This document shows, piece after piece, positions 93 through 19,660 of a DNA stretch of 32,434 nucleotides (position 1 is the first letter of the stretch; each line of letters opens with the position of its first letter). The stretch is from Erysipelotrichaceae bacterium. Lineage in GTDB: Bacteria; Bacillota_I; Bacilli_A; Acholeplasmatales; Anaeroplasmataceae. The stretch is taken from NCBI GenBank assembly GCA_015059145.1, contig SVAZ01000015.1:1-32434 (forward strand), given 5' to 3'. Position numbers and translations under genes: made by a program. The notes under the pieces were generated by a model. It saw nothing but the letters and a program-made list of their open reading frames with translations, was not told the origin of the DNA and ran no database searches.

Positions 93-812
93 ATGAGATA
101 TTTAGAAATTATTATTTTAATTAATTTAGCAATTCATTTGTCATTTATAATGGTTGCAAATTATATTTTTAAACAAAAGAAAAATAGGCTAATGATTTTT
201 TTATCTTGTATTTTAGATATTATTTATATATTAATGTATGTCTATATACCTTATATATTGGAGCCATATAGATTTGTTTTTATATTTATAATATCAATAT
301 TACCATTTGTAACTAAAGGGCTTATTAAAGCATTAATGTTATTATTGGTATATTTGTTGTTGAATTTTACTTTAGGAGGGAGTGCAGGAATCCTATATAA
401 GATAATAAATAACTTCTATGTAGTATTAATTTCCTTATTTATAATTTTATTAATTATATCCATTTGCTCATTATATAAAAAAACTCATTCATATAATTCA
501 TCTTTTATATATCCTGTATTTATATCTGATGGAATTCATTCCTTTTATTTAGATGGATATTGTGACACAGGTAATTTTTTAACTACTGATGAGAATATAC
601 CAATTGTTTTTTTAAATAGAAAAATTAGTATAGGCAGATATAAAAGAAATATAATAGTAACAACTGTTTCTACTAAAAAGGAAATTATGCTATATGAGGT
701 TAAGGAATTTAAAATTAAAATTAAAAATAAATATGTTAAAAGAGATGTATATATAGCTTATGCAGATATATCACACATGGTGATGTTTGGACTAAATATA
801 TTGGGAGGGTAA
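93..812 (+). CDS. spoIIGA: SpoIIGA, membrane aspartic protease that processes pro-sigma E
   Basis: 239 residues. The first ~127 residues are very hydrophobic and form about five membrane segments. A soluble C-terminal domain follows, with a retroviral-type aspartic protease motif, DTGN at residues 158-161 (Asp158 the likely catalytic residue), then an IPIVFLN stretch as in SpoIIGA. In the family the protease dimerises in the septal membrane during sporulation and removes the pro-sequence of sigma E in the mother cell. It lies one base before sigE, the usual order. It is shorter than the ~309-residue Bacillus subtilis protein, and the C-terminal part looks trimmed. The frame is open from 39, but no ATG, GTG or TTG occurs before 93 and no Shine-Dalgarno sequence precedes it. 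Family assignment rests on motif, topology and synteny. Confidence 0.9.
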   Translation: MRYLEIIILINLAIHLSFIMVANYIFKQKKNRLMIFLSCILDIIYILMYVYIPYILEPYRFVFIFIISILPFVTKGLIKALMLLLVYLLLNFTLGGSAGILYKIINNFYVVLISLFIILLIISICSLYKKTHSYNSSFIYPVFISDGIHSFYLDGYCDTGNFLTTDENIPIVFLNRKISIGRYKRNIIVTTVSTKKEIMLYEVKEFKIKIKNKYVKRDVYIAYADISHMVMFGLNILGG

Positions 813-813
813 T

Positions 814-1521
814 ATGTTATTTTTTAAGCTTTTAAAGAAGTTTATTAGAGTTCCTGATGAGGTTTGCTATTTATATAATCAAATGTCTTTGCCAGAGCCA
901 TTAACAGATGAAGAGGAAAAGGAATATGTAAGTAGATGCGTTAATGGTGATATAGAGGCAAGAAACCATCTTATTGAGCATAATATGAGGCTTGTAGTAT
1001 TTATTGCTAAAAGGTTTGAATCTCCTAAGGTTTTATTAGAGGATTTAATTTCAATTGGATCTATGGGATTAATTAAGGGAGTAGAGACATTCAAGCTTGA
1101 TAAAAATATAAAGCTAGGAACTTATGCCTCTAGATGTATAGAAAATGAAATATTAATGTTTCTTAGAAAGGTTTCAAAGCAAAAGGTTGAGATATCTCTT
1201 GATGAGCCTCTTAATATAGATGGAGATGGTAATGAATTATTATTGTCTGATGTTATAGCCAATAATGATAGCCATGCATTAGATGAAGTTCTTAAGGATG
1301 AAAAGGAAAGAGTAATGTATCAGGCTATAGAAAAGCTTAAGCCTCGTGAAAAAGAAATTATTATTTTAAGATATGGTCTTTATAATACAGATAGCTATAC
1401 TCAAAAAGAGGTTGCAGATAAATTGGGTATTTCACAGTCTTATATATCAAGATTAGAAAAAAGAATAATGAATAAATTAAAAATTGAAATAGAAAGAAAA
1501 TTAACATTAGTTTCCAAATAA
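814..1521 (+). CDS. sigE: RNA polymerase sigma-E factor (mother cell), pro-protein
   Basis: 235 residues. It has sigma-70 region 2 (RLVVFIAKRFE ... LEDLISIGSMGLIK ... GTYASRCIENEILMFLR) and region 4 (LKPREKEIIILRYGL ... YTQKEVADKLGISQSYISRLEKR). The SLDEPLNIDGDGNELLLSDV stretch between them is typical of sigma E/K. The first ~22 residues are a basic, hydrophobic pro-sequence ending near DEVCYLYNQ, somewhat shorter than the 27 residues removed in B. subtilis. In the family, sigma E directs early mother-cell transcription after SpoIIGA cleaves the pro-sequence. A GGGAGGG ribosome site at 803-809, inside the end of spoIIGA, precedes the ATG. The gene is co-transcribed with spoIIGA and its stop touches the sigG leader. 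Sigma K is the alternative, but position and the adjacent protease favour sigma E. Confidence 0.95.
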   Translation: MLFFKLLKKFIRVPDEVCYLYNQMSLPEPLTDEEEKEYVSRCVNGDIEARNHLIEHNMRLVVFIAKRFESPKVLLEDLISIGSMGLIKGVETFKLDKNIKLGTYASRCIENEILMFLRKVSKQKVEISLDEPLNIDGDGNELLLSDVIANNDSHALDEVLKDEKERVMYQAIEKLKPREKEIIILRYGLYNTDSYTQKEVADKLGISQSYISRLEKRIMNKLKIEIERKLTLVSK

Positions 1522-1522
1522 T

Positions 1523-1551
1523 GCATAAAAACGTAAAAGCCTCCCATATTA
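1523..1551 (+). promoter_or_regulatory. Candidate sigma-G-type promoter for sigG
   Basis: GCATA at 1523-1527 and CATATTA at 1545-1551, 17 bases apart, fit the forespore sigma-G consensus as I remember it from B. subtilis (GHATR, 17-18 bases, CATnHTA). The start of transcription would fall near 1558, just before the sigG ribosome site. This would allow sigma G to activate its own gene, as in B. subtilis. Seen by eye only. Confidence 0.5.
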
Positions 1552-1571
1552 AATATGAAGGGAAAGATTAT

Positions 1572-2342
1572 ATGCATAAGGTAGAAATAACTGGAGTAGA
1601 CACATCTAAGCTTAAAACGTTGACAAGTGATGAGATGATAGAGCTTCTTTTACTTGTAAAAGAAGGAAATTTAAAAGCTAGAGAAAAAATGATACAAGGT
1701 AATTTAAAGCTTGTATTATCAGTGCTAAAAAGATTTAATGATAAAAAGGAATCATTAGATGATTTATTTCAAGTTGGTTGTATCGGATTAATGAAGGCAA
1801 TTGATAATTTTGACTTATCACATAATGTCAAATTTTCAACATATGCCTGTCCAATGATAATTGGAGAAATTAGAAGGCATTTACGTGATAATGGAGCTAT
1901 TAGAGTTTCTAGAAATTATAAAGACATTGCCTATAAAGCAATTGCTTTTAAGGATAAATATATATCAGAAAAACATCATGAGCCAAGCATAAATGAAATT
2001 AGTGAGGCAATAGGCGCTGAAGCAGTAGATATAATTTTAGCGTTAGAGGCAATTCAGGATACTATTAGCATGTCCACTCCAATATATGATAATGGTGGAG
2101 ATGTCATTGAGCTTGAGGATCAAATAAGTGATAGTAATGATTTGTTTGATGAGTTTTTAAAGAATAATATGATTAAGGAAGCGTTTAAAAGATTATCTAA
2201 TAGAGAAAAGACTATAATTTATGATAGATACTATTTAGATAAGACTCAAATGGAAATTGCAAATGAGCTTTGTATATCTCAAGCACAGGTTTCAAGACTA
2301 GAGAAGAATGCTTTAAAGGAAATGTATGATTATATGAAATAG
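1572..2342 (+). CDS. sigG: RNA polymerase sigma-G factor (late forespore)
   Basis: 256 residues from the ATG at 1572. The N-terminus (MHKVEITGVDTSKL) aligns directly with the start of B. subtilis SigG (MSRNKVEICGVDTSKL). Region 2 holds DDLFQVGCIGLMKAIDNFDL, NVKFSTYACPMIIGEIRR and HLRDNGAIRVSR. Region 4 holds LSNREKTIIYDRYYLDKTQMEIANELCISQAQVSRLEKNA. In the family it drives late forespore genes, including those for DNA-protecting small proteins and germination receptors. I prefer 1572 to the upstream in-frame ATG at 1521. An AAGGGA ribosome site lies at 1558-1563, the 1521 start has none, and the extra 17 residues match nothing in the family. The candidate sigma-G promoter lies between the two ATGs. 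The stop is built into the terminator stem. Confidence 0.95.
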   Translation: MHKVEITGVDTSKLKTLTSDEMIELLLLVKEGNLKAREKMIQGNLKLVLSVLKRFNDKKESLDDLFQVGCIGLMKAIDNFDLSHNVKFSTYACPMIIGEIRRHLRDNGAIRVSRNYKDIAYKAIAFKDKYISEKHHEPSINEISEAIGAEAVDIILALEAIQDTISMSTPIYDNGGDVIELEDQISDSNDLFDEFLKNNMIKEAFKRLSNREKTIIYDRYYLDKTQMEIANELCISQAQVSRLEKNALKEMYDYMK

Positions 2343-2958: not shown

Positions 2959-4059
2959 ATGGCATTAACAGCAGGTATTGTAGGCTTACCAAATGTAGGT
3001 AAATCTACGTTATTTAACGCAATAACAAAAGCAGGTGCATTAGCGGCAAATTACCCATTTGCGACTATTGAGCCTAATGTTGGTATGGTAGAGGTACCAG
3101 ATGAAAGATTATATATTTTATCGGGTATGTATAATCCAAAAAAGACTACACCAGCAGTATGTGAATTTACTGATATTGCAGGACTAGTTAAGGGTGCTTC
3201 AAAGGGGGAAGGTCTAGGAAATCAATTTTTAGGAAATATTAGAAATTGTGATGCAATTTTAGAGGTTGTACGTTGCTTTGAGGATTCTAATGTAACTCAC
3301 GTTGAAGGCAGTGTAGATCCTATTAGAGATGCGCAAATTATTAATTTAGAATTGATTTTATCTGATTTAGAGCAGGTTGAAAAAAGAATTCCTAAGATAG
3401 AGAAAAAAGCACAATCTAAGGTGGATGATGCGGCTTTTGAATATGCACTTTTAAAGAAATTACAAGCTCATCTTATTGAGGAAAAGCCAATTAGATTGCT
3501 TGATTTTGATTCAACTGAAATGAAATATATTGGTAACTATGGATTCTTAACATCTAAGCCATTTATGTATGTTGCTAATGTTGCTGAGGAGTTTATTGCT
3601 GATCCAGAGCAAGATAGTGTATATTTAAAATTAAAGGCATATGCAGAGGAAACAGGATGTAAGTGTATTGCTATTTCGGCTGAAATTGAATCTCAACTTG
3701 CAGTGCTAGATGAAGAAGAAAAACAAATGTTTTTAGCTGATTATGGTGTTACTGAACCTGGATTAAATAAGCTAGTTAGAGAAACTTATGATTTATTAGG
3801 ATATGCAACCTATTTTACTACAGGTCCTGACGAATGTCGTGCTTGGACTTTTAAAAAGGGAATGCTTGCTCCACAATGTGCAGGTATTATTCATACTGAT
3901 TTTGAGCGTGGATTTATTCGTGCTGAAACTGTTGCATATGATGATTTAATTAAATGTGGTAGTCATTTAAAGGCTAAAGAAGCAGGTCTTGTTAGACAAG
4001 AGGGTAAGGATTACACGGTTAAAGATGGCGATATTTTGCTATTTAAATTTAATGTTTAA
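2959..4059 (+). CDS. ychF: YchF/OLA1-family nucleotide-binding translation-associated ATPase
   Basis: 366 residues, full length. The Obg-like nucleotide-binding domain shows GLPNVGKST (G1, residues 9-17), the FATIEPNVG switch region and DIAGLVKGASKGEGLGNQFL (G3). The G4 segment reads NVAE instead of NKxD, the known reason YchF prefers ATP to GTP. A coiled-coil insert and a C-terminal TGS domain (TTGPDECRAWTFKKG ... IHTDFERGFIRAETV ... YTVKDGDILLFKFNV) follow. The family binds ribosomes and is linked to stress control; its exact job is unsettled. The AAGGAG ribosome site sits in the 15-base gap after ppa. No clear hairpin terminator follows. Confidence 0.97.
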   Translation: MALTAGIVGLPNVGKSTLFNAITKAGALAANYPFATIEPNVGMVEVPDERLYILSGMYNPKKTTPAVCEFTDIAGLVKGASKGEGLGNQFLGNIRNCDAILEVVRCFEDSNVTHVEGSVDPIRDAQIINLELILSDLEQVEKRIPKIEKKAQSKVDDAAFEYALLKKLQAHLIEEKPIRLLDFDSTEMKYIGNYGFLTSKPFMYVANVAEEFIADPEQDSVYLKLKAYAEETGCKCIAISAEIESQLAVLDEEEKQMFLADYGVTEPGLNKLVRETYDLLGYATYFTTGPDECRAWTFKKGMLAPQCAGIIHTDFERGFIRAETVAYDDLIKCGSHLKAKEAGLVRQEGKDYTVKDGDILLFKFNV

Positions 4060-4527: not shown

Positions 4528-4560
4528 AAAAAGCAGAGCTTTTTCTGCTTTTTTTCTTTT
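4528..4560 (+). terminator. Rho-independent terminator after the lipoprotein gene
   Basis: AAGCAGA (4531-4537) pairs with TCTGCTT (4544-4550) around a six-base loop, extended by flanking A and T, and followed by a T-rich tract. Confidence 0.9.
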
Positions 4561-4592: not shown

Positions 4593-4621
4593 TTGAAAAA
4601 TATTCATTTTTTTGTTAAAAT
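4593..4621 (+). promoter_or_regulatory. Promoter of the jetABC-sepF operon
   Basis: TTGAAA (4593-4598), exactly 17 bases, then TAAAAT (4616-4621), preceded by TGT as in an extended -10. Transcription would start near 4628, about 33 bases before jetA. No operator-like repeat is evident around it. Confidence 0.75.
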
Positions 4622-4660
4622 AAAATGAAGGTTTTATATTTATGATTGGGGGCGACTAAA

Positions 4661-6070
4661 ATGGATTTTTTTGATATAATATCAGATAATTTTTTCTCGC
4701 TGTTATCTAGTAAAAATAAAAGGATATATTTAGCAAGTATTTTGCAAGCTTTTAAGGTATATGAAAATGGTTCTATTTTAGGTATCGATAAAAAGGTTGT
4801 AGTTGATGATTTGGTTTATTTTTTAGATACGAATTCTTATTTATATGACGTTGAAGACGAAGAGGATGAGGAAGCAAATCCTAAAAGCAAGAGGGAACTT
4901 GCTAATTATATTTTAAGAAGAATGGAAGAATGTGGCTGGATATATGTTGATGTTACAAACGATTATGAGGAAATATTAAATTTTACTGATGCAGCTATTA
5001 TTATATGTGAGGCCATTTTAAAGGCATATCCACAATTTGATGCTAATGATGACTTCTCAAGTGAATTTATTAATCCTAATGAATATCAGGGATATATTTA
5101 TTCAATTTATTCATTGTTAAATCAATCTGATAATGTTGAATATGCATTAATCTTTTCATTAGTATATTCAAACACAAAGCAGCTTATTAGAGCAATTCGT
5201 AGATTAGATGCAAGAATGAAGGATTATATTCAATCTGTAATTGATAATAGTGAAATTAAGGATTTAATGGAAAAGCTTATTTTATATAAGACAGATGTAT
5301 ATGACTCAAGCTACGTTAAGCTTAAGGTTTCTGATAATATTAATCGTTATAGATTAGGTATTATAACAAGATTAAAGGAAATGCAAAATGATGATGTAAT
5401 TGTTAAAGCTATTGCTAATAATTATATTATGACATCTAGAACAATTGAGGAAGCTGAAAGTAAGGCTGTTCGTTATATAGATGAGGTAATTGATGCATTT
5501 AATGCGATAGAAGAATTCATTTCTGAAATTGATAATAAAAATAGAAATTATGTAAATTCAACTATTGGTAAGATTAAATTCTTATTAAGTGAAGAGGATA
5601 ATGTAATAGGTAAAATAAATACTATTTTAAAATACGTAAAGGATAGTAACAAAAATGGTAAGATAGATAAGGCGCTAAAGCTAGTAGATAGCTTACATGC
5701 TCTTAGAGTTCAAAAGGCATTGTCAAATAATTCTTTATATACCCCACGTGGTTCTTATACTAGAACTTATAGTCAAATACTTGATGACGTTGGCTTGGAT
5801 TCTTTTGAAATGACACCAGAATTTTTAGAACAATTTAAGTCATCTTATAACGAGGATTACATTGCTTCTTTTATGGATACTTATATGATTGATAATTTTA
5901 TGAGAGCTTCACAGATTATTGATTATAATTGTGGAGATGATTTGGTTATAATGCTAGTATATTGTGTTATCTATGCAGTTGACAAAAATCATATTGTTGA
6001 GTTGTGTGATAACATAATTGATCATAAGAAATTTAGACTGAGAGATTTTATTATTAAAAGGAGAGTTTAG
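4661..6070 (+). CDS. jetA: JetA: Wadjet/MukF-like kleisin subunit
   Basis: 469 residues from the ATG at 4661. A TTG at 4646 could add five residues, but the G-rich ribosome site at 4648-4655 fits the ATG. The start, MDFFDIISDNFFSLLSSKNKRIY, resembles Firmicute Wadjet JetA proteins. An N-terminal winged-helix-like region (about 1-120) with a strongly acidic loop (EDEEDEEAN) is followed by a long helical part (about 170-345) and a C-terminal domain. JetA proteins act like MukF/MksF: they bridge the heads of the SMC dimer and carry JetB. Two bases separate it from jetB. Identity is by family resemblance plus position before a clear jetB and jetC. Wadjet subtype cannot be settled by eye. Confidence 0.82.
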   Translation: MDFFDIISDNFFSLLSSKNKRIYLASILQAFKVYENGSILGIDKKVVVDDLVYFLDTNSYLYDVEDEEDEEANPKSKRELANYILRRMEECGWIYVDVTNDYEEILNFTDAAIIICEAILKAYPQFDANDDFSSEFINPNEYQGYIYSIYSLLNQSDNVEYALIFSLVYSNTKQLIRAIRRLDARMKDYIQSVIDNSEIKDLMEKLILYKTDVYDSSYVKLKVSDNINRYRLGIITRLKEMQNDDVIVKAIANNYIMTSRTIEEAESKAVRYIDEVIDAFNAIEEFISEIDNKNRNYVNSTIGKIKFLLSEEDNVIGKINTILKYVKDSNKNGKIDKALKLVDSLHALRVQKALSNNSLYTPRGSYTRTYSQILDDVGLDSFEMTPEFLEQFKSSYNEDYIASFMDTYMIDNFMRASQIIDYNCGDDLVIMLVYCVIYAVDKNHIVELCDNIIDHKKFRLRDFIIKRRV

Positions 6071-6072
6071 GG

Positions 6073-6654
6073 ATGTTAGATGCTTTACAAAATATGACAA
6101 TAACACAGCAGAATCAATTTAGAGATACTGCTAATAAATTACTTTCTTGTACATTCTTATCTCGAGATAAAAGAGACAATAAGGAAAGCTATTATTTCTT
6201 AATGAGCTACAAAGAGGTATTTGATGAATTCTTTGATATTTTAGGCTATGAAATTGAACTAGACATGCCTACTGGTAGCGTAATGCTTACAGGCGCTTCA
6301 TCTTCAAATACTTTAAAGCTTAAAAGAGATGAATCTTTAATTCTATTAATTGTTCGACTTTTATATCATGAAAAGATGAAGGATACCTCATTAAATGAGA
6401 ATATAGTATGCTCAGTGAGTGATATTCATGAAAAGTATGATTATTTAGAAATAAAAAAGAAATTAAATAAAACAGATTTAGTTTCGTCTTTACGCTTATT
6501 ACGTAGATACAACCTTATTGAGGTTACTGGTGACTTGTCATCATCAGCGTGTAAGGTGGTAATATTGCCTACTATTCTTATGGCAATTAAGAGTGAAGAT
6601 ATTACTGAGGTGTTTAATACAATCAATAGATTAGCTCACGAGGAGGGAAAGTAG
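6073..6654 (+). CDS. jetB: JetB: DUF4194/MksE-like KITE subunit
   Basis: 193 residues. The pattern of a short N-terminal helix, a QFRDTANKLLSCTFLSRDK segment, a central LKRDESLILLIVRLLYHEK helix and a later winged-helix-like stretch (LVSSLRLLRRYNLIEVTGDL ... VVILPTILMAI) is that of JetB/MksE (DUF4194) proteins. These dimerise and bind the kleisin JetA, supporting the SMC complex. The size is typical. It is translationally coupled: two bases after jetA and one base before jetC. The ribosome site AAAAGGAG lies in the end of jetA. Small-subunit sequences diverge fast, so much of the confidence comes from the operon. Confidence 0.82.
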   Translation: MLDALQNMTITQQNQFRDTANKLLSCTFLSRDKRDNKESYYFLMSYKEVFDEFFDILGYEIELDMPTGSVMLTGASSSNTLKLKRDESLILLIVRLLYHEKMKDTSLNENIVCSVSDIHEKYDYLEIKKKLNKTDLVSSLRLLRRYNLIEVTGDLSSSACKVVILPTILMAIKSEDITEVFNTINRLAHEEGK

Positions 6655-6655
6655 T

Positions 6656-9600
6656 ATGAAAAAGCTTGTTAAAGTAAGATTAATCAATTGGCACTACCTT
6701 TCTAATGAGACTATTGAGATGGATGGTAACATATTATTAACTGGTCCAAATGCATCTGGTAAGTCTACAATTATGGATGCTATTACATATGTATTAACTG
6801 CCGGTGATACTGCGTTCAACCTTGCAGCTAATGATAAAGGTAAGCGTGACCTTAGAGGATATGTAAAATGTAAGCTAGGTATGGATGATAGAGAATATCT
6901 ACGTAATGGAGATGTTTCTGGTCATATCGCATTACAATTTCATGATGAAAGAACAAATACAGATTTCACTGTAGGTGCAGTAATTGATGCATTTGGTGAT
7001 TTGACTCCGGTAAAAACTTTATTTTATAGAAGCTTTGAGCCTATTTCAGATTCAATGTTTGTATCAGATGAAAAAACTATTTATGGTACAGTTGAATTTA
7101 GAAAGCACAATGCATTATTTGAATATTTCTTAACTAAGAAGGATGCAAAGCGTGGATTTAGAAATGCATTTGGTTCTATAAATGAAGATTTTTATAGATT
7201 AATTCCTAAAGCATTAGCGTTTAAGCCTATTGCTGACGTTAAGGATTTTATTTACCAAAATATTCTTGAAGAAAAGGAAATTGATGTTACAGCTATTAAA
7301 GATTCAATTCGTTCATATAAGGAGTTAGAATTAACGCTTAAACAAATTCAAGGTAAAATTAATGATCTTAAGGAAATAGAGGATGTATATAAGGAAATCT
7401 CTAATATAGAGGATCATAAGAATTATATTGAATATTTAATGCATTTATTTGATGTTGAAAATGTTAGAAAAGAAATTCAAAATGCTAAAAAGCAAATTGA
7501 AAAGGAAGAAACTCTAAAGGCATCAAAGGAGCAAGAATTAGCTGATTTAGATTCAGAATTACTTTCTTTACAAGAACGCTCTAGAGAATTATATAATTTG
7601 TTGAGTAATAATGATGTATTTAAGGCTGAAGAATATATTAATAGAGAAATATTGAAAACTCAAGCAAGTATTACATCACTAGAGGCAAATCAAAATAATT
7701 TTTTAAAGAGGGTTTCTAATTTTAAGGATATTATTAACCAGCTAAGAAAGATTTCTGATGATAAAATTTATAATGATGCATATAATATTGGTCTAACTAA
7801 TATTAATCAAAATAATGTAGAAGAAGCTAAGACTAGATTGATTGATTTACAATCTAGATTACAACAAATTAGAAATAAGGAAAATCAAGAGCTAGGTTCT
7901 TTAGAAAGTGAAAAGAGAACTTTAATTGCTCAAATTAATGAGATTTCTGTTGCGTTGAAGAGCTTAGAGGAAAATAGAGTTAATTTCCCTCCTCAATTAA
8001 TCCAATTAAGAAATGAGATTCAAGAGGGTTTAAGAAGAGTTTATAATTACGACATTAATGTTCATATTTTTGCTGAAATTTGTGAAATTAAAAATCAAGA
8101 GTGGGCAGATACAATTGAAATATTCCTGGGTAATCGTAGATTTAATCTAATAGTAGAACCAAGATATTTTGATCAAGCATTACAAATCTATTCTAGAATT
8201 AAGGATAGATATCGTTTATATGGTATTGGTTTAGTAAATACTAAGCAAATTTCAAAATATACTTCATATGAGAAGAACTCATTAGCTTCTATTATTGATA
8301 GTGAAAATACTGACGCTAGAGCTTATATAAATTACACATGTGGTAATGTAATTATGTGTGACAATGCAATGGAATTAGAAAAATATTCTACATCCATTAC
8401 TAATGATTTATTGATTTATCGTGGATATACCGTTTCTAACTTAAATCCTAATGTGGATAAGCCTTTCATTGGTAAGAATGCTGCTAGTCGTGCATCTTCA
8501 ATATGGCAGGCTAAGGCTGCAGAGGCTAAGGGTAAATATGTTGAATTAAATGAAAGAATGGAAAATATTACAACTGAGCTAGAGCTTATTGAAAGAATTG
8601 ACATTCGTCCTATCCTTGAGGATTTAGATAAGGAGCTACAATTACAAAAGGAAAAGTATGCATTAGAAGACTTAAACAAGCAAGTTCTTCGTCAAAGAAA
8701 TGCTACTCCATCTGAGCTTCAAGATGATTATGAAAAGGTACTTCATAGCATTAAATCTATTGATGATAAGAAGATTGGATTCAGTATGGAAATTGGTGGT
8801 ATTGGTATACGTATTCAATCCTTAAATGAATTAATTGCTAATAAGACAGAGGAGCTTGATACTTTAACCTTAAATCTTAAGGATTTAGCAAAGGGCTCTG
8901 TTGTTATTGAGCAACAAGCTAAGGATGAATATAATACAATTATTTCATCATCTAACTTCAAGCAGGCTTTAGAAGGATATCAAGAAAGATATAGAACTGA
9001 ACAAGCTTCATATACAACACTATGTGATAACTTGGTTAGTAAGCAATATGCATATATTAATAAGTTTAATTCAACTTTCAGCATTGGTCTTACTGAAATT
9101 AAGAAATACATAGCAGAGCTTAATAAGCTTGAAAAGAGTGAGCTTATCACTTATGAACAAAAGGTTCGTCAAGCAAGAGAAGCAGCTGAGGTTGTATTTA
9201 AAGAGGATTTCATTGCTAAGCTAAGAAATAACATTTTAACTGCTGAGCAAGAAATCGGTAAAATTAATGAGACATTATCATCAATCACATTTGGTAATGA
9301 TAGATATGAATTTATATTCCCTCGTAGTAGTGAATATGCTCAATTCTATGAAATGGTTACATCTGAATTAGTTGATTTAAATCAAGGTTTATTCACTTAT
9401 GATTTCCAAAATAAATATACTGAGCAAATTAGTGAATTATTTGAAAGCTTATCTGTTGATGAGTTGAATAGTAATGGTGCTATTAATAAGTTTACTGACT
9501 ATCGTACATATATGGATTACGATATAAGAATTACTAACCTAAATGGTGAAACAATGACTTATTCAAAGGTATTTAAGGAGAAGTCCGGAGGTGAAACTCA

Positions 9601-9895
9601 GGTTCCATTCTACGTTGCAATAATAGCTTCATTTGTGCGTTTATATACAAAGACAGGCTTTGCAGGTGGAGATCCAATTGGTTTAGTAATGTTTGACGAG
9701 GTATTCGATAAGATGGATGGTAACCGTATGCGTGCGATGATGAATTTCATCAACTCAATGCCACTTCAGGTTATTATTGCTTGTCCGCCTCAAAGAATGG
9801 AGATATTAAGTGAGTTTTCTTCAACCACTTTAGTTATGGTTCGTCAAGGAACTAAGGCCCAAGTACTTCACATGAATAAAAAGGAGACTGAATAA
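6656..9895 (+). CDS. jetC: JetC: MukB-like SMC ATPase of a Wadjet-type complex
   Basis: 1079 residues. The head N-half has a Walker A, GPNASGKST, at residues 30-38. Long coiled coils at about 215-445 and 620-900 flank a globular hinge-like domain at about 450-615. The head C-half carries the ABC signature SGGE at 977-980 and Walker B VMFDE with Asp1014-Glu1015, followed by IIACPPQRMEIL. All ATPase motifs look intact. JetC proteins are SMC motors that extrude DNA loops with JetA and JetB, and in Wadjet present small circles to the nuclease JetD. Length and motif spacing match JetC rather than Smc (which has a different hinge) or RecN/SbcC. One base separates it from jetB before it and from the SepF-like gene after it. 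No jetD follows. Confidence 0.9.
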   Translation: MKKLVKVRLINWHYLSNETIEMDGNILLTGPNASGKSTIMDAITYVLTAGDTAFNLAANDKGKRDLRGYVKCKLGMDDREYLRNGDVSGHIALQFHDERTNTDFTVGAVIDAFGDLTPVKTLFYRSFEPISDSMFVSDEKTIYGTVEFRKHNALFEYFLTKKDAKRGFRNAFGSINEDFYRLIPKALAFKPIADVKDFIYQNILEEKEIDVTAIKDSIRSYKELELTLKQIQGKINDLKEIEDVYKEISNIEDHKNYIEYLMHLFDVENVRKEIQNAKKQIEKEETLKASKEQELADLDSELLSLQERSRELYNLLSNNDVFKAEEYINREILKTQASITSLEANQNNFLKRVSNFKDIINQLRKISDDKIYNDAYNIGLTNINQNNVEEAKTRLIDLQSRLQQIRNKENQELGSLESEKRTLIAQINEISVALKSLEENRVNFPPQLIQLRNEIQEGLRRVYNYDINVHIFAEICEIKNQEWADTIEIFLGNRRFNLIVEPRYFDQALQIYSRIKDRYRLYGIGLVNTKQISKYTSYEKNSLASIIDSENTDARAYINYTCGNVIMCDNAMELEKYSTSITNDLLIYRGYTVSNLNPNVDKPFIGKNAASRASSIWQAKAAEAKGKYVELNERMENITTELELIERIDIRPILEDLDKELQLQKEKYALEDLNKQVLRQRNATPSELQDDYEKVLHSIKSIDDKKIGFSMEIGGIGIRIQSLNELIANKTEELDTLTLNLKDLAKGSVVIEQQAKDEYNTIISSSNFKQALEGYQERYRTEQASYTTLCDNLVSKQYAYINKFNSTFSIGLTEIKKYIAELNKLEKSELITYEQKVRQAREAAEVVFKEDFIAKLRNNILTAEQEIGKINETLSSITFGNDRYEFIFPRSSEYAQFYEMVTSELVDLNQGLFTYDFQNKYTEQISELFESLSVDELNSNGAINKFTDYRTYMDYDIRITNLNGETMTYSKVFKEKSGGETQVPFYVAIIASFVRLYTKTGFAGGDPIGLVMFDEVFDKMDGNRMRAMMNFINSMPLQVIIACPPQRMEILSEFSSTTLVMVRQGTKAQVLHMNKKETE

Positions 9896-9896
9896 T

Positions 9897-10241
9897 ATGG
9901 CTCTATTTAAGAGGAAGACAAATGATTATGAAACTGCTTCTAGAGGCTTAAATGAATCACAAACTGCTGCAGATAAGTTAATTATCGAGCAAATGAAGGA
10001 TGATGATGAGTTTGCTGCAAAGCTTGTTGATAATCTAAAATCAGGGTCTCCATTAATACTTAATTTTGATGGTCTAGGTGACTTTGCTGCGAATAAAATG
10101 CTTGCATTTTTTGCAGGTGCCACATACGCTTGTGAGGGTAAAACTGTTAAGATTAATGAGACTACATATTTGTTTGCAAGAAGAGTAGAATTCCTTGATG
10201 GCTCATTACAACGTTTTATCCAAACATTACCTAAAAAATAA
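9897..10241 (+). CDS. sepF: SepF-like cell division protein, last gene of the jet operon
   Basis: 114 residues. Residues ~26-97 match the SepF core fold. DEFAAKLVDNLKSGSPLILNFDGL corresponds to the helix and strand read as adhLKsgrPVivNLe in SepF. Then come a helix ending FFAGATYACEG (SepF: FLSGavYAldG) and KINETTYLFARRVEF (SepF: kIGdkiFLltP). SepF links FtsZ filaments to the membrane at the septum. The N-terminus MALFKRK is a short candidate membrane-binding helix. The linker is much shorter than in B. subtilis SepF (about 150 residues) and there is a ~17-residue C-terminal extension. It starts one base after jetC with an AAGGAGA ribosome site inside the jetC end, and no promoter is seen, so expression depends on the jet transcript. 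It occupies the place of jetD. Confidence 0.78.
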   Translation: MALFKRKTNDYETASRGLNESQTAADKLIIEQMKDDDEFAAKLVDNLKSGSPLILNFDGLGDFAANKMLAFFAGATYACEGKTVKINETTYLFARRVEFLDGSLQRFIQTLPKK

Positions 10242-10248
10242 TAATTTT

Positions 10249-10280
10249 AAATAAAGGTCATATTTGACCTTTATTTTTTT
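10249..10280 (+). terminator. Strong rho-independent terminator closing the jet-sepF operon
   Basis: AAATAAAGGTCA (10249-10260) pairs perfectly with TGACCTTTATTT (10265-10276) around a four-base loop, with T residues continuing. It lies eight bases after the SepF-like stop, so the four genes form one bounded unit. Confidence 0.92.
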
Positions 10281-16957: not shown

Positions 16958-19660
16958 ATGAAGGATTATAAGGATACCCTATATATGGGTAAAACAGACT
17001 TTGAAATGCGTGGTAATTTAAATAATAAGGAGCCATTAATTCAACAAAAGTGGAAGGATATGGATCTTTATAATGAGAGAATTAAATTAAATGAAGGCAA
17101 GAGAGAATATACTCTACATGATGGTCCTCCATATGCAAATGGAGACATTCATTTAGGTCATGCCTTAAATAAGATTTTAAAGGATTTTGTTGTTCGTTAT
17201 AAGAACATGAACGGCTTTAAGTCTGTATTTATTCCAGGATGGGATACTCACGGCTTACCAATTGAAAATGCACTTCAAAAGGCTGGTGTATCTAGAAAGG
17301 ATAAGACTACAGCTGAGTTTAGAAATTTATGTACTGAATATGCTTATAAGCAAGTAGAACGTCAAAGAAAGGGATTTGAACGCTTAGGTGTATTAGGAGA
17401 TTTTGAAAATCCATATATTACTTTACAGCATGATTTTGAGCGTGATCAAATTTTAGTATTTGCTAAGATGGCTGAGCGTGGTTTAATTTATAAGGGATTA
17501 AAGCCTGTTTATTGGTCTCCATCAAGTGAATCTGCGTTAGCTGAGGCTGAAATTGAATATAAGGATAAGGAGGATTCTTCAATTTACTTTAGCCTACCTG
17601 TTAAGGATGGTAAGGGTGATTTTGAGGGTGCATCATTCCTAGTTTGGACTACAACTCCTTGGACTTTACCTGCAAACCTTGCAGTATGTGCTGGTCCTCA
17701 AATCGAATATGTTGTTGCACAAACTGAAAAGGGTAAGTTTATTTTTGGTAGAGAGCTATTAGAAAAGCTTACTGAATTATTAGAATTAGGAGATGTTGAA
17801 ATTTTAAGCTACTATAAGGGTACTGATTTAGAAGGATTACAATATACTCATCCTTTATATAATAGAGTTTCTCCATGTATTTTAGGTGATTATGTTTCTA
17901 CATCAGATGGTTCTGGTTTAGTACATATCGCTCCTGGTCATGGTGAGGACGACTTTATGGTAGGTAAGCAATATAATTTAGATATTTTATGTCCTGTTGA
18001 CTCTAAGGGTTATATGATGAAGGAAGCTGGAAAATATGAAGGTATGTTCTATGCTGAATGTAATGAAGAGGTTATTAAGGATATGGAGGCTTGTGGCTGC
18101 TTATTAAAGTGTGTTAAGATTAACCATAGCTACCCACATGACTGGAGAACTAAAAAGCCTGTTATCTTTAGAGCAACTCCACAATGGTTTGCATCTATTG
18201 ATCCAATTAAGGATGATATTTTAAAGGCAATCAATAATGTTACATGGAATCCTAAGTGGGGAGATGTACGTATTTCAAATATGATTCGTGATCGTCATGA
18301 TTGGTGTATTTCTCGTCAAAGAGCTTGGGGTGTTCCTATCCCAGTATTCTATGCTGAAAATGATGAAGAAATTCTAGATCAAAACGTATTAAAGCACGTT
18401 GCTGAATTATTCGGTCAGTATGGTTCAAATGTTTGGTTTGAGCGTGAGGCTAAGGATTTATTACCTGAGGGATTCACTCATCCAGGTAGCCCTAATGGTA
18501 AATTCCGTAAGGAAACTGATATTATGGATGTTTGGTTTGATTCAGGCTCTTCATATATGCTACTTCAAAGAAGAGGCTTACAATATCCAGCTGATTTATA
18601 TTTAGAGGGTTCTGACCAATATAGAGGTTGGTTCAATTCATCTATTATTACAGGTGTTGCAACTACAGGTGTTGCGCCATATAAGACTGTAGTATCTCAC
18701 GGCTTCACATTAGATGGTGAAGGTAGAAAGATGAGTAAGTCTTTAGGAAATACTGTAGATCCTATTAAGGTTTGTAATGAATCAGGTGCTGATATTCTTC
18801 GTTTATGGGTAGCATCTGTTGAATACCGTGCAGATATGCCTTTATCTAAGGATATCTTAAAGCAGGTTTCTGAATCATATAGAAAGATTAGAAATACATT
18901 AAGATTCTTATTATCAAATACATCTGATTTCAATCCTAAGGATTCATTACCTTATGAGAAGCTAGAATTAGTTGATAAGTATATGTATATTAAGCTTCAA
19001 AAGTTTATTAAGCAAATTAAGGATAATTACGATAATTTCGATTTTGGTGAGGTATATCGTAATGTAAATAGCTATATTGCTAATACATTATCTGCATTTT
19101 ATTTAGACTTTACTAAGGATATTTTATACATTGAGGATCCTAAATCAAATAAGAGATTATCTACTCAAACAGTATTCTATCAGGTTTTATTAGCATTAAT
19201 TAAGCTATTAACACCAATCCTACCTCATACTATGAGTGAGGCATATGATTCTTTACAATATAAGGAAGCTAAGGATGTTTATTTAACTGATATGCCTATT
19301 GTAGATGAAAAGCTAGATTCTCGATTAGAAGCCAGCTTTGATGAATTTATGGATTACCGTGATGTTGTATTAAAGGCTTTAGAGGAAGCAAGAGCTAATA
19401 AGGTTATTGGTAAGAGCTTTAATGCTAAGCTTACTATTACATTAGATGAAAAATCAAAGAAGATTTTCGATTTAATCAAGGTTGATGCATCTCAATTGTT
19501 AATTGTATCTCAGCTAGAATTTGCTGATGGAAATTCTTTTGATGTTAAGGTAGAGCCTGCTACTGGAGATACTTGTGCAAGATGCTGGATGATTGTTCCT
19601 TCAATCAATGAAGAAGAACTATGTCCAAGATGCAATTCTATTGTTTTTAAGATTCGCTAA
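16958..19660 (+). CDS. ileS: Isoleucyl-tRNA synthetase
   Basis: 900 residues, close to the 921 of B. subtilis. It charges tRNA-Ile with isoleucine in the cytoplasm. Class I motifs are the HIGH-type HLGH (in PPYANGDIHLGHALNK) and KMSKS (GEGRKMSKSLGN). The editing domain shows LVWTTTPWTLPANLAV and HIAPGHGEDDF, and HDWCISRQRAWGVPIP and DVWFDSGSS are typical IleS stretches. The C-terminal zinc finger CARCW ... CPRC is complete. An AGGAGGAAG ribosome site follows the T-box terminator. In B. subtilis ileS also lies downstream of sigG and sepF, an order partly kept here. Shadow frames on both strands within it are not genes. Confidence 0.98.
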   Translation: MKDYKDTLYMGKTDFEMRGNLNNKEPLIQQKWKDMDLYNERIKLNEGKREYTLHDGPPYANGDIHLGHALNKILKDFVVRYKNMNGFKSVFIPGWDTHGLPIENALQKAGVSRKDKTTAEFRNLCTEYAYKQVERQRKGFERLGVLGDFENPYITLQHDFERDQILVFAKMAERGLIYKGLKPVYWSPSSESALAEAEIEYKDKEDSSIYFSLPVKDGKGDFEGASFLVWTTTPWTLPANLAVCAGPQIEYVVAQTEKGKFIFGRELLEKLTELLELGDVEILSYYKGTDLEGLQYTHPLYNRVSPCILGDYVSTSDGSGLVHIAPGHGEDDFMVGKQYNLDILCPVDSKGYMMKEAGKYEGMFYAECNEEVIKDMEACGCLLKCVKINHSYPHDWRTKKPVIFRATPQWFASIDPIKDDILKAINNVTWNPKWGDVRISNMIRDRHDWCISRQRAWGVPIPVFYAENDEEILDQNVLKHVAELFGQYGSNVWFEREAKDLLPEGFTHPGSPNGKFRKETDIMDVWFDSGSSYMLLQRRGLQYPADLYLEGSDQYRGWFNSSIITGVATTGVAPYKTVVSHGFTLDGEGRKMSKSLGNTVDPIKVCNESGADILRLWVASVEYRADMPLSKDILKQVSESYRKIRNTLRFLLSNTSDFNPKDSLPYEKLELVDKYMYIKLQKFIKQIKDNYDNFDFGEVYRNVNSYIANTLSAFYLDFTKDILYIEDPKSNKRLSTQTVFYQVLLALIKLLTPILPHTMSEAYDSLQYKEAKDVYLTDMPIVDEKLDSRLEASFDEFMDYRDVVLKALEEARANKVIGKSFNAKLTITLDEKSKKIFDLIKVDASQLLIVSQLEFADGNSFDVKVEPATGDTCARCWMIVPSINEEELCPRCNSIVFKIR

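Follow-up and report, generated by a model that had tools for sequence, protein, structure and literature searches.

Why do the genes of a putative loop-extruding SMC complex stand in one tight row with a gene for cell division? The question is raised by a locus in the window analysed here, the whole stretch of 32,434 nucleotides of contig SVAZ01000015.1 (assembly GCA_015059145.1; an Anaeroplasmataceae bacterium), in which jetA, jetB and jetC are followed directly by sepF. With a probability of about 0.7, we favour the explanation that the four genes form a housekeeping operon, in which a nuclease-free JetABC would act as the chromosomal condensin and would be co-produced with the cell's sole SepF. 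Of the two halves of this reading, the occurrence of a nuclease-free Jet complex in genomes without Smc is the firmer, and the functional coupling to division the more open.

All features given here with coordinates lie on the + strand. The operon begins with jetA, encoding the kleisin (4664..6070; PF18982, E = 1.2e-73; PADLOC JetA1, 1.6e-111), whose ATG start at 4664 shares its frame with a TTG at 4646. It continues with jetB, encoding the KITE subunit (6073..6654; PF13835, 4.8e-29; MksE PF21980, 2.6e-07; PADLOC JetB1, 2e-61), and jetC, encoding the SMC ATPase (6656..9895; PADLOC JetC1, 1e-302) with Walker A, signature and Walker B motifs recognized by pattern. The last gene, sepF (9897..10241), was assigned by PF04472 (7.8e-10) and by fold, and is the only SepF match in its genome. 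The initial annotation had proposed gaps of 2, 1 and 1 bases between the genes, and kleisin, KITE and SMC identities for the first three; open reading frame calls confirmed the spacing, and Pfam and PADLOC bore out the identities.

SepF is the membrane tether of FtsZ. The product of the fourth gene scored 39.3 bits against the Pfam model PF04472 (cut-off 27), and PADLOC returned zero matches for it. As a single sequence it found B. subtilis SepF (3zih) in the PDB weakly, at an E value of 0.15; a profile built from 17 SepF proteins of the family reached the same structure at 7.6e-08. The predicted model had a confidence (predicted local distance difference test, pLDDT) of 85.5. When it was searched against the PDB with Foldseek, 14 of the 16 top matches were titled SepF, including SepF-FtsZ complexes, with template modelling (TM) scores of 0.72-0.90 normalized to the target. 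The other two were 3p04 chains; this C. glutamicum protein is uncharacterised. By hidden Markov model and predicted fold, gene four is a true SepF, as had been proposed. Where a membrane-targeting helix would be expected, its N-terminus carries a conserved short basic start (approximately M-x-L-F-x-K-K), but the model is of low confidence there (residues 1-3 and 7-9).

To see how widely the arrangement is shared, we used an order-level sample of 150 genomes, a subset of a larger group, and a class-level sample of 296. The window's family, Anaeroplasmataceae, is designated f1, and f2, f3, f4 and f5 are other families of the same order. Three genomes of unlisted family with no SepF or JetC match (G118, G139 and G143) were taken to lie outside the window's family, rows without a match being ordered with the nearest kin first. 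sepF was found directly behind jetC in 54 of 55 family genomes, and the 55th contig (G087) ends inside jetC. In these 54 genomes the SepF domain follows the JetC match, by coordinates and on one strand, at a distance of 63-194 bases. The distance from the jetC stop to the sepF start was -1 in 29 loci, +2 in 8 and +1 in 3, fell between -26 and +10 in a further 13, and was 67 in G011. Spacing was thus within -26 to +10 bases in 53 of the 54 loci that reach past jetC, stop and start usually touching, and the sampled family shares this arrangement throughout. The expected recurrence of the pair in related genomes was therefore observed, and a one-off neighbourhood was rejected.

Outside the family, SepF was never encoded behind jetC in order genomes holding both genes (0 of 3 in f2, 0 of 44 in f3, 0 of 1 in f4 and 0 of 2 in f5). 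Eight of these f3 genomes hold jetC and sepF far apart on one contig, and the others hold them on different contigs. JetC was found in 49 class genomes from outside the order; 32 of these also had SepF, which by coordinates adjoined jetC in none. In four f24 genomes with both genes on one contig, the distance was about 74-93 kb. Across other families, adjacency of jetC and sepF was found in 0 of 82 genomes with both genes.

Matches of JetA, JetB and JetC to the type I Wadjet models of PADLOC could indicate an anti-plasmid Wadjet defence system with a stray sepF, and the initial annotation had placed the first three genes in the Wadjet/MukBEF superfamily. However, the nuclease JetD was found neither in the operon nor, by homology search, in the genome (1.43 Mb, 94.4% complete, 34 contigs), and in just 9 of the 150 order genomes, 7 of them with scores over the cut-off. 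The jetABC genes are therefore not a Wadjet defence system, and this identity was rejected. Moreover, JetC was present in all 55 family genomes and formed one clade, a distribution that is not patchy as expected of defence genes. JetD-bearing Wadjets did occur in 4 of the 55 (G007, G052, G056 and G060), but as extra copies on other contigs with JetC proteins placed elsewhere in the tree. A defence role for the operon thus appears highly improbable. With SMC, kleisin and KITE subunits, ATPase motifs and no nuclease, the locus has the composition of a nuclease-free Jet/MksBEF-like condensin. The IFDR motif, the JetB contact for JetD, could not be recognized by eye in any of the JetB rows, those of JetD-bearing loci included, and its loss gave no signal either way as a mark of nuclease loss. 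Note that one genome (G026) contains a JetD-like gene (L125) on a contig (G026:C80) that gave no match to type I JetC.

A JetC tree was computed from 55 loci, a subset of those found, hand-chosen to cover families; it is unrooted, comes from a quick search and carries a long-branch warning. All 18 family rows formed one clade (support 99). Family genera with several rows grouped together, the window's genus with weak support (64). The family clade grouped with the nuclease-free JetCs of f2, f4, f23 and f24 (support 100), JetD-bearing Wadjets branching around it. Other nuclease-free JetCs stood apart from this group, namely those of f3 (with a phytoplasma-like row), f11/f21 and f7 (L092, L086-L091, L093-L099). 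Their separate positions suggest that JetD was probably lost several times, although in such a tree loss and gain are indistinguishable. Widely defined patterns for Walker A, signature and Walker B were found in 54 of the 55 rows, the exception being the far row L119.

Next to a nuclease-free Jet complex, no canonical condensin was found. Taking a match to TIGR02168 at E <= 1e-40 as Smc, we found canonical Smc in 0 of the 150 order genomes, with the same search positive in 11 of 14 named control genomes; ScpA was likewise found in 0 of 150, its search being positive in 9 of the 14 controls. The homology search of the window's own genome, which is 94.4% complete, gave no Smc and no ScpA, and the operon copy as the one SepF match. 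In the order sample JetC was present in 125 genomes, SepF in 118 and FtsZ in 114. The class sample comprised 11 genomes with JetC and ScpA, 70 with JetC alone, 124 with ScpA alone and 91 with neither (Fisher p 2.4e-12, kinship ignored). A JetD match was present in 9 of the 11 genomes with both proteins compared to 5 of the 70 with JetC alone, and JetD adjoined JetC in 7 of 11 compared to 2 of 70 (coordinates compared by hand; Fisher, kinship ignored). The adjacency counts indicate that JetC mostly belongs to an armed Wadjet where ScpA is kept, and mostly has no adjoining nuclease gene where ScpA is gone. Thus, JetABC looks like a replacement condensin for Smc-ScpAB, with a distribution that fits this role, rather than a defence complex borrowed for division. 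In f12 (L114-L118), JetABC was seen without an adjoining JetD in genomes that keep ScpA. A paper on Acholeplasma genomes makes no mention of smc, scpA or sepF in its text (PMC4221730).

The neighbourhood of sepF in relatives indicates how the two parts came together. In 10 of the 12 sepF loci examined outside the family (families f3, f5, f7, f12 and f24), sepF directly follows yggS as a tight pair. The gene order in f3, f5 and f24 is tgt-ftsZ-...-yggS-sepF-...-ileS-...-deoC-deoD, and that in G011, the first-branching family row of the JetC tree, is ftsZ-...-ychF-jetA-jetB-jetC-sepF-ylmH-ileS-surE-...-deoC-deoD. yggS had no match within three genes either side in the family loci, where the search for it was confined to these flanks. 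Given this difference in order, sepF has not moved: it is in its ancestral place between ychF and ileS, and jetABC occupies the position held by yggS in most relatives examined. SepF thus did not join jetABC. In the SepF tree the 54 family rows fell on one side of a branch (support 92, from few columns). SepF as a new jet-associated gene was rejected, tree and old gene order both pointing to an inherited SepF.

We infer that jetABC-sepF is one transcription unit, consistent with hairpins before and after it. The terminator that had been placed behind sepF is present as a terminator-like hairpin with a T run (10249..10276), and another such hairpin lies behind the gene upstream of the operon (4528..4553). 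A terminator-like site within 120 bases behind sepF was found in 21 of 54 family loci, compared to 0.2 expected from mononucleotide shuffles. On this anatomy, shared expression of jetABC and sepF is supported. A single transcript with translational coupling would set how much condensin and SepF are made relative to each other, and when. If sepF lacks its own promoter at this site, chromosome segregation and Z-ring anchoring would have become obligatorily co-expressed. JetABC itself would extrude loops on the chromosome, bringing about compaction and separation as with MksBEF and MukBEF.

The same anatomy could have arisen without any benefit. jetABC may have landed upstream of a promoterless sepF, so that separation would silence a division gene and the junction would persist as a frozen accident. 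The tight yggS-sepF pair in 10 of 12 loci outside the family suggests that the upstream neighbour may supply the sepF transcript, and jetABC stands elsewhere in related families, unlinked to sepF. On the other hand, gaining a separately promoted copy of sepF would presumably be easy. The flanks, moreover, have rearranged many times around a junction that is unbroken in 54 of 54 loci reaching past jetC: by hand tally, 30 of 46 assessable family loci have ychF no more than three genes ahead of jetA, and 17 of 45 have ileS no more than three genes past sepF (a further 9 and 10 loci, respectively, could not be assessed). This comparison overstates selection, since members of a single operon are separated less often than genes from different operons. 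We regard the accident as a serious contender, at somewhat short of even odds. It concerns the retention of the junction and is compatible with the condensin part of the favoured reading, and the likelihoods attached to the readings do not sum to one.

In addition to this limit of the flank comparison, several findings weigh against the housekeeping-operon reading. JetC, ScpA and Smc matches were all lacking in 25 of the 150 order genomes. In f5, 11 of the 13 listed genomes have FtsZ and SepF and lack JetC, ScpA and canonical Smc; these are possibly condensin-free or contain another SMC type. Together with the 91 of 296 class genomes that have neither JetC nor ScpA, the f5 genomes show that JetABC does not necessarily make up for a loss of Smc. 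In 2 of the 12 sepF loci outside the family, L213 (f23) and L144 (f17), yggS is not directly upstream of sepF. A promoter-like site does exist ahead of jetA, where the initial annotation had put a promoter (4593..4621; TTGAAA-17-TAAAAT, with TG before the -10 element), but it is plausible only, because such sites are no commoner across the region than expected by chance (40 found, 41.7 expected). All 10 named family contigs come from metagenome bins or uncultured isolates, and the chromosomal role of the complex is a prediction.

As an addition to the condensin operon, and not exclusive of it, SepF or the Z ring might bind JetABC directly and bring the loop-extruding motor to the division site, where it would clear or pull septal DNA. 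The family-wide fixed linkage of an apparently sole condensin with a sole SepF speaks for such mechanical coupling, as does a precedent: C. glutamicum MksBEFG is located at poles and septa in a DivIVA-dependent manner (PMC10123090). Against it, no family-specific indel of at least 4 columns was found in JetA, JetB or JetC (80%/20% rule; 17 or 18 family rows compared to 16 others), and no FtsZ-tail-like motif was seen in the three; FtsZ-tail mimicry and an acquired domain in JetABC, neither of which appeared in this comparison, were rejected. SepF has no extra domain and resembles the SepF of relatives lacking the linkage. FtsZ ended in P-x-W-L after a charged linker in 11 of 11 family genomes examined, and the tail was also present in six relatives of other families examined, so that SepF has its usual partner, to which it would be expected to bind. 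FtsZ of the family was 391-437 residues long with a charged stretch before the tail (L214-L222, L167, L169), compared to 378-388 residues in four f3/f5 genomes. A second FtsZ-like protein of ~337 residues, scoring below the family cut-off, was observed in three genomes of the window's genus (G052:C86, G075:C120 and G083:C6). With the usual FtsZ partner and no such indel or motif in JetABC, shared expression is the best-supported step and physical contact a guess. Accordingly, we consider direct coupling unlikely; neither the physical motor-septum link nor the role in asymmetric sporulation division suggested in the initial annotation was shown by any result. Equally doubtful is a fuller scenario in which a former defence complex became the family's sole condensin and was wired to the Z ring, co-made SepF recruiting JetABC to the septal membrane and loop extrusion clearing the closing septum in Smc-less cells.

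The surroundings of the operon in the window retain landmarks of the ancestral division cluster, with ychF upstream (2959..4059; PF06071, 1e-37) and ileS downstream (16958..19660; PF00133, 1.7e-143), both also placed by gene order. A spoIIGA-like gene (PF03419, 2.5e-14) and two sigma-70-family genes, recognized by sigma-70 regions, occupy 93..2342; from their place beside the division cluster we take the latter to be sporulation sigma factors, and genes of these kinds are presumably the usual neighbours of ftsZ/sepF in Bacillus. They are followed by ppa and ychF before jetABC-sepF, with ileS, deoC and deoD behind. A survey of Bacilli reports that most Anaeroplasmataceae genomes have sporulation genes and that 40-60% have peptidoglycan genes (PMC10868615), which fits the spoIIGA-like and sigma genes at the window start. 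The same survey describes the family, by reference, as non-spore-forming and peptidoglycan-deficient, next to which the genes at 93-2342 may be noted.

If the housekeeping-operon reading is true, a nuclease-free relative of a plasmid-defence motor has assumed the housekeeping duties of Smc-ScpAB, with a bearing on how MukBEF and MksBEF originated. One family would then link chromosome segregation to Z-ring anchoring at the gene level, in four genes. In the open-licence literature, where absence is weak evidence, we found nothing joining SepF with JetC or Anaeroplasmataceae with SepF. For Wadjet with Acholeplasma one paper was found, on Bulleidia with a complete jetABCD.

Compared with known systems, the locus shares kleisin, KITE and SMC and the order jetA-jetB-jetC with type I Wadjet (JetABCD; MksBEFG; EptABCD), but it lacks JetD, is present in every sampled family genome and has sepF in the place of JetD. 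MksBEF is not known to be linked to sepF, nor MukBEF to a Z-ring anchor gene. P. aeruginosa MksBEF is similar as a nuclease-free Jet-like complex; P. aeruginosa, however, also has SMC (PMC7485682), whereas here neither Smc nor ScpA was found. Enterobacterial MukBEF, a different protein family, is alike in that it seems to have taken the place of Smc-ScpAB across a whole lineage (PMC10586767). C. glutamicum MksBEFG is also a Jet-type complex tied to a division or polarity protein, but there the tie is a dependence of localisation and a nuclease is present, in contrast to the gene-level link without nuclease seen here. Closest in gene order is the yggS(ylmE)-sepF cluster of Firmicutes, with the same sepF in the same place between ftsZ/ychF and ileS; the difference is that in Anaeroplasmataceae jetABC replaces yggS directly upstream.

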